64,000 nucleotides of DNA from Aquiluna sp. KACHI24 (GTDB taxonomy: Bacteria; Actinomycetota; Actinomycetes; Actinomycetales; Microbacteriaceae), in the NCBI RefSeq assembly GCF_025997915.1, contig NZ_AP026677.1, positions 310,001-374,000 on the forward strand, given 5' to 3'. Shown piece by piece: positions 10,500-15,924 of this stretch (its first letter is position 1; each line of letters opens with the position of its first letter). Under the pieces are notes generated by a model that had not been told where the DNA came from, searched no databases, and was given only the letters and a program-made list of their open reading frames with translations. A program made the position numbers and the translations under genes.

Positions 10500-11036
10500 A
10501 TGTCTAAAGTCATCTTTTACGGAGTGATGTCCCTCGACGGCTATATTGCTGGTGAAAACGATGACATGGGTTGGGCTGAAAAATATCTCAGCCCCCAAGA
10601 GGACTTCGGCTGGATGGAGCTGATTCAGAGCTGTGGTGCAGTCTTGATGGGTCGCAAGACGTTTGAGTTTGAACTCAAGAATGCCCCAGAGCTAGATCGA
10701 ATCCTTCCCACCTACGTGGTAACCGAACAGCCGCTTCGATTCGATGGTGTCCATACCCAGAATCTCTACTTCATTGGCGGCGATCTGCGTGAGGTGGTCG
10801 AGAGCATCAAGGCCAAGCATCAGGGCAACCTATTTGTTGGTGGCGGTGCGATGCTATTGGACACCATGTTGGTGATGGGCTTGGTCGACGAGCTTCGACT
10901 GTTCCTGGCACCTGACCTCTTAGGTGGCGGGACCAAATTATTCAAGGGTTCCCAAATCAAGGCGCAATTTAGCCTGACCCAGACCGAACAATACGAGTCT
11001 GGGCTTGTGGAAATGCGTTTGGAAAGAAAGCTCTAG
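10500..11036 (+). CDS. RibD C-terminal / dihydrofolate reductase-like protein
   Basis: 178-residue stand-alone member of the RibD_C/DHFR-fold family (YyaP/YwjB-like), starting with the family hallmark VMSLDGYIAG and containing a MGRKTFE segment and a nucleotide-binding FVGGGAML. Predicted NADPH-dependent reductase of unknown substrate. It is too short for full RibD (no deaminase domain), and no folate or riboflavin genes are adjacent, so I do not assign a pathway. Expressed from its own leaderless promoter; a CsoR/CstR-type operator lies one base after its stop codon. Confidence 0.8.
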   Translation: MSKVIFYGVMSLDGYIAGENDDMGWAEKYLSPQEDFGWMELIQSCGAVLMGRKTFEFELKNAPELDRILPTYVVTEQPLRFDGVHTQNLYFIGGDLREVVESIKAKHQGNLFVGGGAMLLDTMLVMGLVDELRLFLAPDLLGGGTKLFKGSQIKAQFSLTQTEQYESGLVEMRLERKL

Positions 11037-11037
11037 C

Positions 11038-11055
11038 TATACCCATGGGGGTATA
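11038..11055. promoter_or_regulatory. CsoR/CstR-type operator overlapping a -10 box
   Basis: TATACCCATGGGGGTATA: a perfect inverted repeat TATACCC-N4-GGGTATA, the G/C-flanked geometry of CsoR-family operators. Its right end overlaps a good -10 hexamer, TATACT (11052-11057), so a bound repressor would block the promoter of the following 40-residue protein gene. The same core, ATACCC-N4-GGGTAT, recurs at 15521-15536 beside the repressor gene. Confidence 0.75.
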
Positions 11056-11090
11056 CTGAAAAGGTAGATCAGAAACAAAGGAATCTAGAT

Positions 11091-11213
11091 ATGTGCTCAC
11101 AAGTTATGTGCCACGACTGCTCAAAGCCAACCTGGCAGGGTTGCGGACAACACATTGAGGATGCCCTAGAGGGCATCGCCGAGGCGGACCGCTGCCAGTG
11201 CCCGAGGGACTAA
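11091..11213 (+). CDS. 40-residue six-cysteine protein, putative sulfane-sulfur regulon member
   Basis: Short gene: ATG 11091, TAA 11211-11213, with AAAGGA 8 bases upstream. The 40-residue product begins MCSQVMCHDC and has Cys at 2, 7, 10, 18, 35 and 37, with CHDC (7-10), QGCGQH (17-21) and CQCP near the end, plus an acidic middle. It resembles small unnamed Cys-rich proteins I recall next to CsoR-family genes in other actinobacteria; I know of no established function. It could bind a metal or carry persulfide. The operator just upstream suggests control by the CstR-like repressor at 15224-15493. Confidence 0.75.
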   Translation: MCSQVMCHDCSKPTWQGCGQHIEDALEGIAEADRCQCPRD

Positions 11214-11279
11214 TCAGCTTTTCCTCGCTAAACTAACGCTGTTCCCCCCTTCATTGTCGAGTAGACGTTAGGTCAGCCA

Positions 11280-12875
11280 TTGTCTAAGCCAGTAGTTCTA
11301 ATTGCCGAGGAGCTTTCGCCTGCCACCCTTGAGGCGCTCGGACCTGATTTTGAAATCCGCAACGTAGATGGCGCTGATCGCTCCGCTTTGCTGCCAGCTT
11401 TGGCCGAGGCGAACGCGGTGCTGATTCGCTCCGCCACCAAGATGGACGCGGAGGCCATTGCTGCCGCACCAAAACTGAAGGTGATTGCCAGAGCTGGCGT
11501 TGGTCTAGACAACGTTGACATCAAGGCAGCAACCAATGCCGGTGTCATGGTCGTAAATGCTCCGACTTCGAACATAATTTCCGCGGCTGAGCTCGCGATT
11601 GCTCAGATCATGGGTCTTGCCCGTCACATCCCAGATGCCAATGCATCGCTCAAGGCAGGGGAGTGGAAGCGCAGCAAGTACACCGGTGTCGAGCTGTATG
11701 AAAAGACAATCGGAATCATCGGTCTTGGCCGAATCGGAACTTTGGTTGCTCAGCGCCTAGCTGGGTTTGGAACCACCTTGATCGGTTATGACCCTTACGT
11801 GACCCAGGCTCGTGCCGAGCAGATGGGTGTCGAATTGGTTTCAATCGAAGAGCTCATGAAGCGAAGTGACTTCATCACCATCCATATCCCAAAGACCCCT
11901 GAGACCACGGGCATGATTTCCACCGCTCAGTTCTCAATCGCGAAGCCGAACCTCAGAATCGTCAACTGCTCACGCGGTGGCATCATCGATGAGGCAGCCC
12001 TCTACGAGGCACTGAGCTCCGGTCAGATTGCTGGCGCTGGATTGGACGTATTCGTCAACGAACCACCAAAGGATTCACCTCTGTTGGGCCTTCCAAACAT
12101 TTTGGTTACCCCTCACCTCGGTGCTTCTACTGACGAGGCTCAGGAGAAGGCTGGTATCTCGGTTGCAAAGTCAGTCCGACTGGCACTGGCCGGCGACCTC
12201 GTCCCAGACGCGGTCAACGTCGCCGGAGGTGTCATCGACGCTTCTGTGAAGCCAGGCATCCCACTGGCCGAGAAGCTTGGTCAGATCGTCGCCGGTCTTG
12301 CTCACACCTCAATCGTTTCGGTTGAGTTTGAGGCACGCGGTGAGATTGCCGCTCACGATGTGACCGTGTTGAAGTTGGCTGCTCTCAAGGGGCTGTTCCA
12401 GACCATGGTCACCGAGCAGGTTTCCTATGTAAACGCCCCACTGATGGCCGAGCAGCGCGGTGTTGAGGTTCGCCTCACTCAGGACACCAAGAGTGACGAG
12501 TATCGCAATGTCACCACTTTGAAGGCAGTGCTCTCCGATGGCAGCAGCGTTTCCGCTGGCGGAACCGTCATTGGACCGAAGCACCAGCAAAAGGTAGTTT
12601 CCATCAACGGATATGACGTCGAGCTTTCGATGGCCGAGCACCTAGTGGTTATGGTTTACCAGGACCGCCCAGGTATCGTGGCGATCTACGGCAAGGCATT
12701 CGCAGAGGCCGGTATCAACATCGCCGCGATGACCATTGCTCGCCAGCAAAAGGGTGGCAAGGCCCTCAGCGTTATCACGGTTGACTCTCCAGTGGCTCCA
12801 GCCCTTCTTGACAAGCTCAAGGTTGAGATTCAGGCCGACAGCATGCGAGCCATCTCGCTGGTAGACGAGTACTAA
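11280..12875 (+). CDS. serA: D-3-phosphoglycerate dehydrogenase
   Basis: 531-residue long-form PGDH, first step of serine synthesis. Domain order: substrate-binding N-terminus, NAD Rossmann fold (GLGRIG near residue 150), the intervening allosteric substrate-binding domain found in mycobacterial-type enzymes, and a C-terminal ACT domain (VVMVYQDRPGIVAIYG, about 457 onward) for serine inhibition. TTG start at 11280; the reading frame has no closer ATG that keeps the family N-terminus. No clear Shine-Dalgarno is present. Followed by a strong terminator shared with the convergent operon. Confidence 0.94.
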   Translation: MSKPVVLIAEELSPATLEALGPDFEIRNVDGADRSALLPALAEANAVLIRSATKMDAEAIAAAPKLKVIARAGVGLDNVDIKAATNAGVMVVNAPTSNIISAAELAIAQIMGLARHIPDANASLKAGEWKRSKYTGVELYEKTIGIIGLGRIGTLVAQRLAGFGTTLIGYDPYVTQARAEQMGVELVSIEELMKRSDFITIHIPKTPETTGMISTAQFSIAKPNLRIVNCSRGGIIDEAALYEALSSGQIAGAGLDVFVNEPPKDSPLLGLPNILVTPHLGASTDEAQEKAGISVAKSVRLALAGDLVPDAVNVAGGVIDASVKPGIPLAEKLGQIVAGLAHTSIVSVEFEARGEIAAHDVTVLKLAALKGLFQTMVTEQVSYVNAPLMAEQRGVEVRLTQDTKSDEYRNVTTLKAVLSDGSSVSAGGTVIGPKHQQKVVSINGYDVELSMAEHLVVMVYQDRPGIVAIYGKAFAEAGINIAAMTIARQQKGGKALSVITVDSPVAPALLDKLKVEIQADSMRAISLVDEY

Positions 12876-12909: not shown

Positions 12910-14550
12910 CTATTTCGCGCGCTCCAGTGCATCCATGCCGGTTCGCCAAGTGGTGTAGCCGCCATCGAGGTTTCTAGCTTTGATGCCGTGCTGACGAAGG
13001 ATCTGAGTTGCGGTGTGACCACGCTGACCAACTGCACAGGTGACAATTACTTCCTTGCCCCGAAGTTCTTCAACCCGCTCACGAAGTGTGTCGATGGGGA
13101 TTAGGACGGTGTTTGGGATGTTGCCATTTTGGTGTTCATCTTCGGTTCTGACATCGACAACTAAGGCTCCGCTTTCCTGCGCAGCCCGGACCTCATGCCA
13201 CTGGATGTTTGGAGACTTGCCAGTTCTGACATTGTTTCCGACGTAACCAGTCTGGTTGATGGCGTCTTTGGCGGATCCAAAGGCCGGCGCATAAGCAAGC
13301 TCCAGGTTCATCAGATCATCAATGGTTAGACCCGCGTAGATTGCGGTTGCAATCACATCGATGCGCTTATCGACCCCATCGCGTCCAATACCTTGAGCTC
13401 CCAAGATCTTGCCGGTCTCAGGATCAAACAACACCTTTAGTGACACGCGTTCGGCACCTGGGTAGTAACCGGCGTGGGAACCTGGGTGAAGGTGAATCAC
13501 CTGATGCTTGATACCCATTCGCTTGGCAAGCCCCTCGGTCAAACCAGTTAGTGCTGCGGCCATGCCGTAGGCACCGATGATGCCGGTTCCAATCGAAGGT
13601 CTAGCGGCCACCTTTTCTCCGGATATGACATCGGCAACTAGTCGACCGTGACGGTTGGCCAGGTTCGCAAGCCAAATCATTTGATTGGCTCCAGTCAGCA
13701 GACTGGTCTTCTCGGCGGCATCGCCCACGGCATAAATGTGCGGGTCAGACGTCTGCATCTGGTCGTTGACCCAAATGCCACCGGCCTCACCAATCTTTAG
13801 TCCTGCCTCAACCGCGAGCTGGTGATCTGCCACCACGCCGATGGCGGCAACAACTAGGTCGGCTGGAACAACCCGGCCGTCCTTCAGCTTCAGCGAGTCC
13901 TCGAGCACAGCTTCGGTTTCGGCGCGAAGTGCGAGCTTGATGCCGTGCTTTATAAGCTCTGCCTGCATCGGTTCGATCATCTCTGGGTCGAACTGGGGGA
14001 GGATCGTGTCCCTGAACTCGACAATGGTGGTTTCGATACCCCGGTGGTTTAGGTTCTCGGCCAACTCAACGCCGATAAAACCTGCTCCGATGATGGCAGC
14101 GGTCTTGATCCTCTTTTGATCCACGAGCTCCTTGATAGCGATCGCATCCGGGACATCTCGCAATACATGAGCGCGCTCGAGTCCGGGGATCGGAACCATT
14201 CTCGGCTTGGCACCGGTCGAGAGAATCAGTGCGTCATAGCTCTCGGTGTAGCTCTCGCCGGTCTCAAGGTTTTTCACCTCAACGGTTTTCTCCGTGGGGT
14301 TTAGCTTGGTGACTCGGTTGCGCACTCGAACGTCGAGTCTGAAGCGGTCATGAAGCGATTTTGGGGTTTGTAGGAGCAGGTCCTTTTGTTCTGGAATCAC
14401 CTCACCAATGTGATAGGGCAGGCCGCAGTTTGCGTATGAAACGTGAGGACCCTGTTCAAAGACGATGATCTCGGCATTCTCTTGTAATCTGCGCAGTCTT
14501 GTGGCCGCTGACATGCCACCGGCTACACCGCCAACAATTAGAACCTTCAA
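12910..14550 (-). CDS. CoA-disulfide / NADH-persulfide reductase fused to rhodanese
   Basis: 546-residue flavoprotein: FAD fold (GGVAGG, residues 7-12), the CoA-disulfide reductase active-site Cys C42 in YANCGLPYHIG, a central NAD(P) fold (GAGFIGVE, about 155-162), dimerization domain, then a C-terminal rhodanese domain with active-site C505 in CAVGQRGH. This is the architecture of CoADR-RHD enzymes, including NADH-dependent persulfide reductases that split persulfides to thiol and sulfide. TTG start at 14550 directly abuts the stop of the upstream rhodanese gene. Last gene of the cstR-rhodanese-rhodanese-reductase operon. Confidence 0.88.
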   Translation of the reverse strand: MKVLIVGGVAGGMSAATRLRRLQENAEIIVFEQGPHVSYANCGLPYHIGEVIPEQKDLLLQTPKSLHDRFRLDVRVRNRVTKLNPTEKTVEVKNLETGESYTESYDALILSTGAKPRMVPIPGLERAHVLRDVPDAIAIKELVDQKRIKTAAIIGAGFIGVELAENLNHRGIETTIVEFRDTILPQFDPEMIEPMQAELIKHGIKLALRAETEAVLEDSLKLKDGRVVPADLVVAAIGVVADHQLAVEAGLKIGEAGGIWVNDQMQTSDPHIYAVGDAAEKTSLLTGANQMIWLANLANRHGRLVADVISGEKVAARPSIGTGIIGAYGMAAALTGLTEGLAKRMGIKHQVIHLHPGSHAGYYPGAERVSLKVLFDPETGKILGAQGIGRDGVDKRIDVIATAIYAGLTIDDLMNLELAYAPAFGSAKDAINQTGYVGNNVRTGKSPNIQWHEVRAAQESGALVVDVRTEDEHQNGNIPNTVLIPIDTLRERVEELRGKEVIVTCAVGQRGHTATQILRQHGIKARNLDGGYTTWRTGMDALERAK

Positions 14551-14883
14551 TTACTTCACGACCTTCAGGCCAGCTCGCTGCCAGCCGATAATTCCACCCG
14601 AAACATTTAGGACTTGGTATCCGTTGCGAGAGAGTATCTCTGCGGCGCGCTGGGAGCGCGTTCCAGATTGACACATCACCACAATCTGGCGCTCCTTAGG
14701 GATCTCGCTCAGTCGACGCTCGATTACCTGCACCGAGATGTGTCTTGCGCCTGGAGCGTGACCAGATCGGTATTCACTGGACTCACGCACATCGATCAAC
14801 ATCGCGCCCAAGTCCTGAGCCTCCCTAGCCTTGGCTGGAGAGACGGTCTCGTACTTCTTCTTGAGAAAACTAAAAAGCCCCAC
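14551..14883 (-). CDS. Single-domain rhodanese
   Basis: 110-residue rhodanese-fold sulfurtransferase. The catalytic loop is CQSGTRS (Cys near residue 71) and the usual DVR and GHAPGA motifs precede it. No signal peptide; the N-terminus is short and basic (FSFLKKKYE). The GTG start directly follows the TAA of the upstream rhodanese gene and the stop directly precedes the reductase gene, so all three are translated as one unit. Likely passes sulfane sulfur between low-molecular-weight persulfides, the reductase and acceptors. Confidence 0.88.
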   Translation of the reverse strand: MGLFSFLKKKYETVSPAKAREAQDLGAMLIDVRESSEYRSGHAPGARHISVQVIERRLSEIPKERQIVVMCQSGTRSQRAAEILSRNGYQVLNVSGGIIGWQRAGLKVVK

Positions 14884-15201
14884 TTACTTGCTGGGCTCCA
14901 TCGAGACAGCGCGGCCAGAAGCCACCCAGCCATCTGTGCCACCGGCAACCGAAACCACATCGAAGCCTTGGGCTTCAAGGTAGTCACAAGCGCGCATGGA
15001 ACGACCGCCGGACTTACAAACCAGCCAAACCTGTTGGTCTCTTGGAATGCGATCAAGTGCCTCTGGAATCTCATTCAGGGGAATGTGGTGAGCGTTTGGG
15101 ACGTGACCCATCTCAAACTCATCGTTTTCGCGGACATCTACTACGTGAGCTCCGGCTGCAATCGCAGCCTCTAGCTCATTCAAAGTAACTTCTCTACCCA
15201 T
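14884..15201 (-). CDS. Single-domain rhodanese
   Basis: 105-residue rhodanese with catalytic loop CKSGGRS (Cys near residue 62), DVREN and GHVPNA motifs. Shine-Dalgarno AAAGGA lies 8 bases upstream of ATG 15201. Second gene of the operon, 22 bases after the repressor gene. Sequence clearly different from the neighbouring rhodanese, so the pair is not a recent tandem duplication; the two active-site loops suggest different partners. Confidence 0.88.
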   Translation of the reverse strand: MGREVTLNELEAAIAAGAHVVDVRENDEFEMGHVPNAHHIPLNEIPEALDRIPRDQQVWLVCKSGGRSMRACDYLEAQGFDVVSVAGGTDGWVASGRAVSMEPSK

Positions 15202-15223: not shown

Positions 15224-15493
15224 TTAGCTCAGTGATAAAAATGCTTTCTCCAACTTGGCCCGATCGGCCAAGCCGTTGGCGTCGGTACCGCAGTTTGCGA
15301 TGCCGCTCGCAATCAGTGAAAAAGCGGCCTTGGAAACTGCTGCCTGCGCTGCGGCTAGCTGAGTGAGGATTTCGGCACAGTCACGACCCTCTTCAACCAT
15401 CTTGATGATGCCGCCGAGCTGGCCTTGAGCGCGCGACAAGCGCTTTTTCACCGCATCCAGGTCTTCCTTGGGAATGTCCAAAGTTCGCTCCAA
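15224..15493 (-). CDS. cstR: CsoR-family repressor, CstR-like (persulfide-sensing type)
   Basis: 89-residue all-helical repressor of the CsoR/RcnR family (PF02583-type): VKKRLSRAQGQLGGI is the family core. Copper sensors need Cys, then His-x3-Cys. Here C39 and C68 are kept 29 residues apart, but the position four before C68 is Gly (G64) instead of His. That is the CstR pattern, in which two Cys sense persulfide or polysulfide. The gene heads a rhodanese/persulfide reductase operon, which agrees. TTG start at 15493; no better start is visible. An inverted-repeat operator lies 28 bases upstream, so it is probably autoregulated. Confidence 0.82.
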   Translation of the reverse strand: MERTLDIPKEDLDAVKKRLSRAQGQLGGIIKMVEEGRDCAEILTQLAAAQAAVSKAAFSLIASGIANCGTDANGLADRAKLEKAFLSLS

Positions 15494-15520: not shown

Positions 15521-15536
15521 ATACCCTAGGGGGTAT
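15521..15536. promoter_or_regulatory. CsoR/CstR-type operator between repressor and rhodanese lipoprotein
   Basis: ATACCCTAGGGGGTAT, a perfect ATACCC-N4-GGGTAT inverted repeat, sits in the 59-base divergent gap. A -10-like TACATT (15516-15511, minus strand) for the repressor gene lies immediately beside it, so one bound repressor could shut both directions. Confidence 0.75.
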
Positions 15537-15552: not shown

Positions 15553-15924
15553 ATGAACATTTTGAAGTTTGTGGTTGGTGCACTGATTGCTGTATTCGCA
15601 ACCACCTCGTTAACCGCCTGCGCGACCGAGACCTATGACCCAACCGCGTACGCGGCAATTATCGACGTCCGCACCCCTGAGGAGTGGGCAGAGGGTCACC
15701 TACAGGGTGCAGTTCGCATGGGTATTGCTGACAGCGACTTTGCTAGCCAATTAGCAACTTTGGATCCAGCCAAGGACTACTACATTTACTGCCGAAGTGG
15801 TAACCGCGCTGGACAGGCCATCGATTACATGCGCTCAGTTGGTTTCACCGGGGAGCTAATCAATGGTGGTGCAGTTGCAAATGCCGCTACCCAGCTGGGG
15901 CTTGAGGTTGTAACTGGGGAGTAG
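15553..15924 (+). CDS. Rhodanese-domain lipoprotein
   Basis: 123-residue protein with a lipoprotein signal peptide (hydrophobic segment then LTAC lipobox, Cys about residue 22) followed by a rhodanese domain whose catalytic loop is CRSGNRA. The sulfurtransferase should therefore sit on the outer face of the membrane. ATG 15553 chosen because AAAGGA is 6 bases upstream; a longer frame from 15499 would run through the operator. Divergent from the CstR-like repressor and probably controlled by it. Followed by a clear terminator. Confidence 0.88.

Follow-up and report, generated by a model that had tools for sequence, protein, structure and literature searches.

In S. coelicolor, the CsoR-like repressor ScCsoR (SCO0620) has been shown by experiment to sense sulfane sulfur and binds the sequence ATACCn6GGTAT (PMC7533328). 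It represses the genes for PDO, a rhodanese and a sulfite transporter, and polysulfide releases it via Cys37, with Cys66 involved (PMC7533328). The available text of that report describes the circuit as four genes (CsoR-like repressor, PDO, rhodanese and sulfite transporter) and mentions no mini-protein (PMC7533328). In E. faecalis, a cst-like operon encodes CstR, RhdA, RhdB and CoAPR (PMC9405070). The sulfur donors and acceptors of its rhodaneses are stated to be unknown, and the available text mentions no six-cysteine mini-protein (PMC9405070).

We analyzed a stretch of 64,000 nucleotides (the window), which is part of a single-contig genome of 1.46 Mb. The features of the locus are as follows.

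11039..11054, no strand: CsoR/CstR-type operator ATACCCATGGGGGTAT, a perfect 6+6 palindrome with a 4-base spacer, starting 52 bp upstream of the mini-protein
11052..11057, plus strand: TATACT, an inferred -10-like hexamer overlapping the right half-site of the operator at 11039
11077..11082, plus strand: Shine-Dalgarno sequence AAAGGA, 8 bases 5′ of the mini-protein ATG
11091..11213, plus strand: 40-aa Cys/His mini-protein (C2, C7, C10, C18, H21, C35, C37), from translation and family conservation
11280..12875, plus strand: serA, phosphoglycerate dehydrogenase, TTG start (2-Hacid_dh, PGDH_inter, ACT)
12910..14550, minus strand: CoA-disulfide-reductase-like flavoprotein with a C-terminal rhodanese domain (best NCBIfam model TIGR03385, 471 bits, below the cut-off of 579)
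14551..14883, minus strand: rhodanese, by domain match
14884..15201, minus strand: rhodanese, by domain match
15224..15493, minus strand: CsoR-family repressor of CstR type (PF02583), with two Cys, and Gly where Geobacillus CsoR has His
15521..15536, no strand: ATACCCTAGGGGGTAT, the other perfect operator, located between the divergent CstR-type and rhodanese genes
15553..15924, plus strand: rhodanese with an N-terminal lipobox-like sequence (LTAC); the start at 15553 was chosen by us

The window has parts like those of the E. faecalis operon: a CstR-type repressor, two rhodaneses and a CoA-disulfide reductase with a rhodanese domain (PMC9405070). The S. coelicolor circuit shares its operator form with the site at 11039, and both operator form and gene types with many loci of the mini-protein family (PMC7533328). 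As described in the available text, the published actinobacterial reactive-sulfur circuit consists of repressor, enzymes and transporter (PMC7533328), and the mini-protein would add a component to it.

A conserved 40-residue gene

The original prediction, made from the DNA alone, had claimed a 40-residue frame with Cys at 2, 7, 10, 18, 35 and 37, preceded by a good Shine-Dalgarno sequence. Translation of 11091-11213 (+) gave MCSQVMCHDCSKPTWQGCGQHIEDALEGIAEADRCQCPRD, in exact agreement, and AAAGGA is indeed present at 11077-11082. The prediction also hung on the reading frame and the Cys positions being kept in relatives. They are kept: C2, C7, C10 and C18 are found in all 125 curated copies.

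These copies came from a tblastn search with the mini-protein. Of the 198 genomes searched (the window's own and those of its genus, family and order), 97 had a match at E<=0.01, the window's own among them. The matches comprised 130 places. Regions were read in 120 of 121 cases, with genome G194 left out, and 129 places were extracted. After removal of four spurious ones, 125 copies in 95 genomes remained. In the co-occurrence tables, G194 was entered as a carrier on its tblastn match alone, which brings the genomes with the mini-protein to 96. Four weaker matching places were seen elsewhere in the window's own genome (E 0.017-0.32).

Among same-genus copies (55 pairs from 11 of the 12), mean pS was 0.65 and mean pN 0.21, which is purifying selection on the mini-protein. 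Because 97 of 198 genomes match and the same-genus copies are under purifying selection, ORF 11091-11213 is, on these comparative grounds, a genuine gene. The reading that the ORF is spurious or a leader peptide, with a functionless product and an operator that matters only for serA, is hardly credible. The frame is very short, and serA is the next gene, 66 bases after the stop codon, and stands directly downstream in all 12 same-genus copies mapped. However, the downstream genes vary between mini-protein copies, and the family is widespread, with 119 of 296 genomes of the class matching and 14 genomes from outside the class. The purifying selection and the invariant residues led us to reject a spurious ORF. 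The order of mini-protein and serA (11091-12875) raises the question of co-induction of serine/cysteine supply.

The figure for the class comes from a profile search. In a sample of the phylum, the same kind of search matched 19 of 198 genomes, including the 14 outside the class. A scan of a species-genome collection gave at least 584 confirmed stretches with the family. Among 80 of these, five metagenome-assembled records bear other names, three of them Chloroflexi or Limnocylindrus and two Acidobacteria; all other titles are actinobacterial. Since the pattern that selected the 80 loci requires C18 and H21, the ligand counts below were taken from the 125 copies. A set of 189 sequences mixes both samples and excludes non-ATG starts and lengths outside 36-70 residues. 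By sequence, the mini-protein falls into a large family without a name, of ~37-67 aa and mostly actinobacterial. Our literature search, which covered few subscription journals, found no paper on this family; its motif strings brought up only papers unrelated by title.

The 40-aa query had no match in Pfam or NCBIfam, and its matches in the PDB by sequence were at chance level. When 85 members were compared with Pfam and NCBIfam, weak matches were scattered and none was above cut-off; the largest groups were YyzF/TIGR04129 and HMA. Two AlphaFold2 models had moderate confidence (mean pLDDT 79.9 and 83.2, pTM 0.44 and 0.50) and contained two short strands and a short helix. A Foldseek/VIA search with these models gave no usable fold match in the PDB.

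Operators and the type of repressor

Perfect ATACCCN4GGGTAT sites occur only twice in the 1.46-Mb genome, at 11039-11054 and 15521-15536. With one mismatch allowed, the search of this genome gave 3 sites vs 4 in a reversed-pattern control. Since this was no better than the control, only perfect sites were used. Over the 198 genomes there are 240 perfect sites in 92 genomes, and the reversed pattern matched in two genomes. About a third of them (79/240) stand within 400 bp before copies of this unnamed mini-protein. The core TACCCN4GGGTA is found within 400 bp upstream of 71 of the 125 copies, where shuffles predict 0.06 and the reversed control gave 0. Most core sites (77/83) lie 35-91 bp before the mini-protein start.

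The half-site nearer the gene continues as TATANT/TANAAT in 36 of 83 sites, vs 7 of 83 for the far half. This run-on suggests that the repressor may cover the -10 box. A simple sigma-70 scan of 10900-11320 returned 0 promoters. The claim of a dedicated operator-promoter was thus upheld in its operator half, by the perfect palindrome and its presence before 71 of 125 copies; in the promoter half, a TATACT hexamer is seen but the scan found no promoter, so that the promoter is a putative one.

In CsoR, the His four residues before the second Cys is a copper ligand. We aligned the window repressor to Geobacillus CsoR (4m1p) and also to 7mq1. Compared with 4m1p, both Cys are kept and Gly replaces this His. 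We then used the window's repressor as query for CsoR-family proteins near the mini-protein copies, taking the first C-x28-C pair per ORF. In all 55 distinct neighbouring proteins the C-x28-C pair is present, and the residue four before its second Cys is A, G, S, T, C or P, never His. Among NCBIfam models, the window repressor scores best with that of the copper repressor RicR, but its 46 bits are far below the cut-off of 175. From these residues, the window regulator looks CstR-like, not copper-like.

Because the ScCsoR site resembles the operators of Geobacillus CsoR and M. tuberculosis RicR (PMC7533328), the operator by itself is compatible with copper. A copper regulon became less probable when none of the 55 neighbouring repressors kept the copper-ligand His.

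Neighbouring genes and co-occurrence

The original prediction had proposed tblastn followed by inspection of neighbours, and this bore it out in part. A sulfur-removal or CstR-type gene lies within ~4 kb of the mini-protein at 74 of 120 loci; of 40 control loci in the same genome set, 1 has such a gene. By type, the 120 loci have a CstR-like gene in 56 cases, CoA-disulfide reductase in 48, rhodanese in 32, persulfide dioxygenase in 11 and TauE in 11; the 40 control loci have 0, 0, 0, 1 and 0, respectively. Each type of neighbour was searched for with one reference sequence, which probably makes these counts too low and may have missed repressors unlike that of the window. An operator or such a sulfur neighbour is present at 108 of the 125 copies, and 17 copies have no operator and no sulfur gene within the stretches read. 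A CstR-like gene lies within 10 kb of 52 of the 130 places.

Three layouts recur. The first is operator-CstR-(rhodanese)-reductase-mini-protein, and the second is twin operators-long mini-protein-short mini-protein-dioxygenase-TauE-rhodanese with a divergent CstR gene. In the third, the operator is followed by the mini-protein alone. Among the 22 commonest clusters of neighbours, leaving aside the ilv/serA synteny of the window's own genus, the largest are those of CoA-disulfide-reductase type (34 loci), the CsoR family (19) and rhodanese (16). One further cluster, of 13 loci, is an apparent wrong-frame ORF. P-type ATPases, recognised by eye, stand near the mini-protein in 3 loci. The idea of a partner of the rhodaneses thus held in that rhodanese and persulfide genes are nearby in many relatives. 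Taken alone it is too narrow, because the gene sits with CoA-disulfide-reductase and persulfide-dioxygenase loci alike.

Across the 198 genomes, mini-protein and operator are both present in 80, the mini-protein only in 16, the operator only in 12 and neither in 90. With one genome per genus the same four counts are 52, 9, 8 and 61 (p ~3e-18, uncorrected for deeper ancestry). For mini-protein and CstR they are 41, 20, 6 and 63 (p ~1e-12, likewise uncorrected). A CstR-like gene without the mini-protein is found in 12 of 198 genomes, and in 28 of the 96 genomes that carry the mini-protein the CstR search found nothing at E<=1e-12. Since operator-only, CstR-only and CstR-less mini-protein genomes exist, the partnership of mini-protein, CstR and operator is not obligate. 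Within the genus (22 genomes), all 12 genomes with the mini-protein have the operator and 11 have a CstR match; of the 10 without it, 7 lack both a perfect operator and a CstR match.

We thus found a CsoR/CstR-type operator upstream of the gene, a CstR-type repressor encoded at the locus and co-localisation with sulfur genes above background. On this comparative evidence, the mini-protein very probably belongs to the CstR (sulfane-sulfur) regulon of many Actinomycetota.

Conserved residues and the Cys/His swap

Besides the four invariant Cys, G17 and G19 are present in 125/125 copies. H21 and C35 are each kept in 124 of 125 and W15 in 121. In the 189-sequence set, K12, T14 and W15 are kept in 180, 185 and 185 sequences, respectively. 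One copy (L160, in genome G026) is degenerate, the only such case: H21 is replaced by Arg and the frame ends after residue 30. That genome lacks a perfect operator, and the CstR search found nothing in it at E<=1e-12.

The sixth Cys behaves differently. At least one of C37, H38 and H39 is present in 124 of 125 copies, and exactly one in 123. C37 is the sole one in 52 copies, as is H38 in another 52 and H39 in 19; one copy has both C37 and H39, and one has none of the three. Parsimony gives ~21 Cys/His changes, on a weak tree of 35 residues. Metal ligands show just such an either-or use of Cys and His at shifting spacing, a thiol relay less so. That the sixth Cys swaps with His38 or His39 in this manner suggests a putative metal site formed by some, if not all, of the Cys/His set. 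The mini-protein probably has a metal-binding fold, as predicted from these residues.

Family members come in two lengths: a short one, to which the query belongs, and a longer one that is mostly His-type (74 of the 89 sequences of >=50 residues). Both types occur in 16 of the 24 multi-copy genomes. A hydrophobic/basic C-terminal tail, such as GFFARLFGR (L187, L174), was found with a loose pattern in 79 of 189 sequences and is absent from the query. In the long subfamily this tail is possibly a membrane or partner-docking motif. Two members stand side by side, a long His-type followed by a short Cys-type, at L203 (G102), L214 and L215 (G115), L176 (G069) and L161 (G031). Such pairs precede a persulfide dioxygenase gene in several loci.

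Several known families resemble the mini-protein in part. TIGR04129 and PF14116 (YyzF, "CxxH/CxxC protein") are likewise small, and the model name records an alternation of CxxC and CxxH. Weak matches were seen in 20 of 85 members for TIGR04129 (best E 0.0044) and in 18 of 85 for PF14116 (best E 0.024). TIGR04129 did not match the query and found no place in the window's own genome at E<=1. From these matches, the two models are possible distant relatives at best.

The stretch GC-x2-H-I-E-x-A-L of the mini-protein resembles the start of the HMA helix. The mini-protein is much shorter and has Trp15 where the HMA domain has its first Cys. An HMA domain (PF00403) is not supported, as the query matches no Pfam family, the best E among the 85 members was 0.086 and Trp takes the place of the first Cys. 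TusA-type sulfur carriers bear a CPxP motif. A carrier of this type is not supported either, since the 40 residues contain no CPxP and have no Pfam match.

MymT is a metallothionein under the CsoR paralogue RicR. MymT and the bacterial metallothioneins are likewise short, rich in Cys and under a CsoR-family repressor. In contrast to MymT, the regulator here is of CstR type without the copper-ligand His, and no metallothionein model was among the domain matches. A MymT-like copper metallothionein is made less probable: the copper-sensing Cys/His/Cys set is missing in the window repressor and in 55/55 neighbours.

Proposed role and rival explanations

Our preferred explanation is that the mini-protein is a metal-folded thiol protein of the CstR regulon that accepts or buffers sulfane sulfur. 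We give the whole of this explanation a probability of about 0.45. Within it, the proposal that the protein acts mainly as a sulfane-sulfur acceptor or buffer is tentative.

Rising persulfide or polysulfide would modify the Cys of the CstR-type repressor (15224-15493), which would then leave the operators at 11039 and 15521. Upon derepression, synthesis of the mini-protein would start along with that of the rhodaneses and of the CoA-disulfide-reductase/rhodanese protein. It would fold around a metal, most likely Zn(II), via the Cys/His set. Reactive thiolates, perhaps including Cys2, would take up sulfane sulfur, so that the mini-protein would serve as an abundant carrier or sink. Rhodanese and reductase, or persulfide dioxygenase in other species, would then empty the sulfur-loaded protein.

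Met-aminopeptidase removes the start Met before Cys. If this happens here, Cys2, present in 125/125 copies, would become N-terminal and thus an unusually reactive position. Because the gene often stands directly behind an operator, is very short and is found in reductive and oxidative loci, its arrangement suggests that it acts stoichiometrically, as carrier or sink, rather than as part of a single enzyme. The Cys/His swap counts against a carrier, since it favours metal ligation and leaves fewer Cys free for sulfur transfer.

The original prediction had offered a persulfide carrier and a metal-binding buffer side by side. The main rival to our reading is such a metal buffer, of metallothionein-like kind. 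Its induction by sulfane sulfur would answer the loss of Zn or Cu from proteins attacked by persulfide or sulfide; it would hold that metal and transfer no sulfur. This buffer fits the Cys/His swap equally well: the single ligand chosen at positions 37-39 and its repeated changes on the weak tree speak for it, as do the sub-threshold HMA-domain matches (12 of 85 members) and the MymT precedent. We nevertheless consider it unlikely, given that all 55 adjoining CsoR-family regulators lack the copper-ligand His and that the commonest neighbour clusters are of sulfur type, with P-type ATPases rare. Third comes an adaptor or regulatory zinc finger, which would bind to rhodanese, CoA-disulfide reductase or CstR and modulate its activity, for instance by resetting persulfidated CstR. 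The conserved residues that are not ligands (G17, G19, K12, T14 and W15) speak for it, the tail of the long subfamily could dock, and a CstR-like gene is often within 10 kb. However, the sets of possible partners differ between reductive and oxidative loci, some copies stand alone behind an operator and the query has no C-terminal tail, which makes the adaptor less likely still than the buffer.

The metal-folded acceptor or buffer of sulfane sulfur is thus the reading that we prefer. A stronger version would be a zinc-folded new class of sulfur carrier with an N-terminal Cys, the missing acceptor of CstR-controlled rhodaneses that feeds CoA-persulfide reductase or persulfide dioxygenase; this version is doubtful. 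The mini-protein would extend a known regulon by one new component and stands a fair chance of being a sulfur carrier of a new kind. The family is a small, easily made candidate acceptor for the CstR-controlled rhodaneses. It also offers a case where metal binding and sulfur handling may be separable, by C37/H38 on one side and C2 or C18 on the other.

Copies on viral contigs and plasmids

Among viral contigs, 14 stretches matched the mini-protein and 7 of these encode relatives (L342-L348). None of the 7 loci had a match to the sulfur reference proteins. The operator is present in two of them, and in L347 it lies ~80 bp before the mini-protein copy.

Matches were also found in 83 plasmid records, including 42 from Rhodococcus and 16 from Clavibacter. 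Among the 40 of these 83 records that were listed, the feature beneath the match was either none or "hypothetical protein", in a gene table that is incomplete; one of the 40 also had an overlapping methyltransferase annotated. Four plasmid loci were read. The fourth had neither sulfur genes nor operator. In the other three, rhodanese is found with TauE, CstR-type or reductase genes, and an operator stands ~50-65 bp before the mini-protein. L340 (Rhodococcus jostii RHA1 pRHL3), L338 and L339 are plasmid sulfur gene clusters with operators and a copy of the mini-protein. On pRHL3 the member is annotated as RHA1_RS51140 and lies among genes for rhodanese, a metal-sensitive regulator, an MBL-fold protein and TauE; the operator core matches five times within 10 kb of this plasmid.
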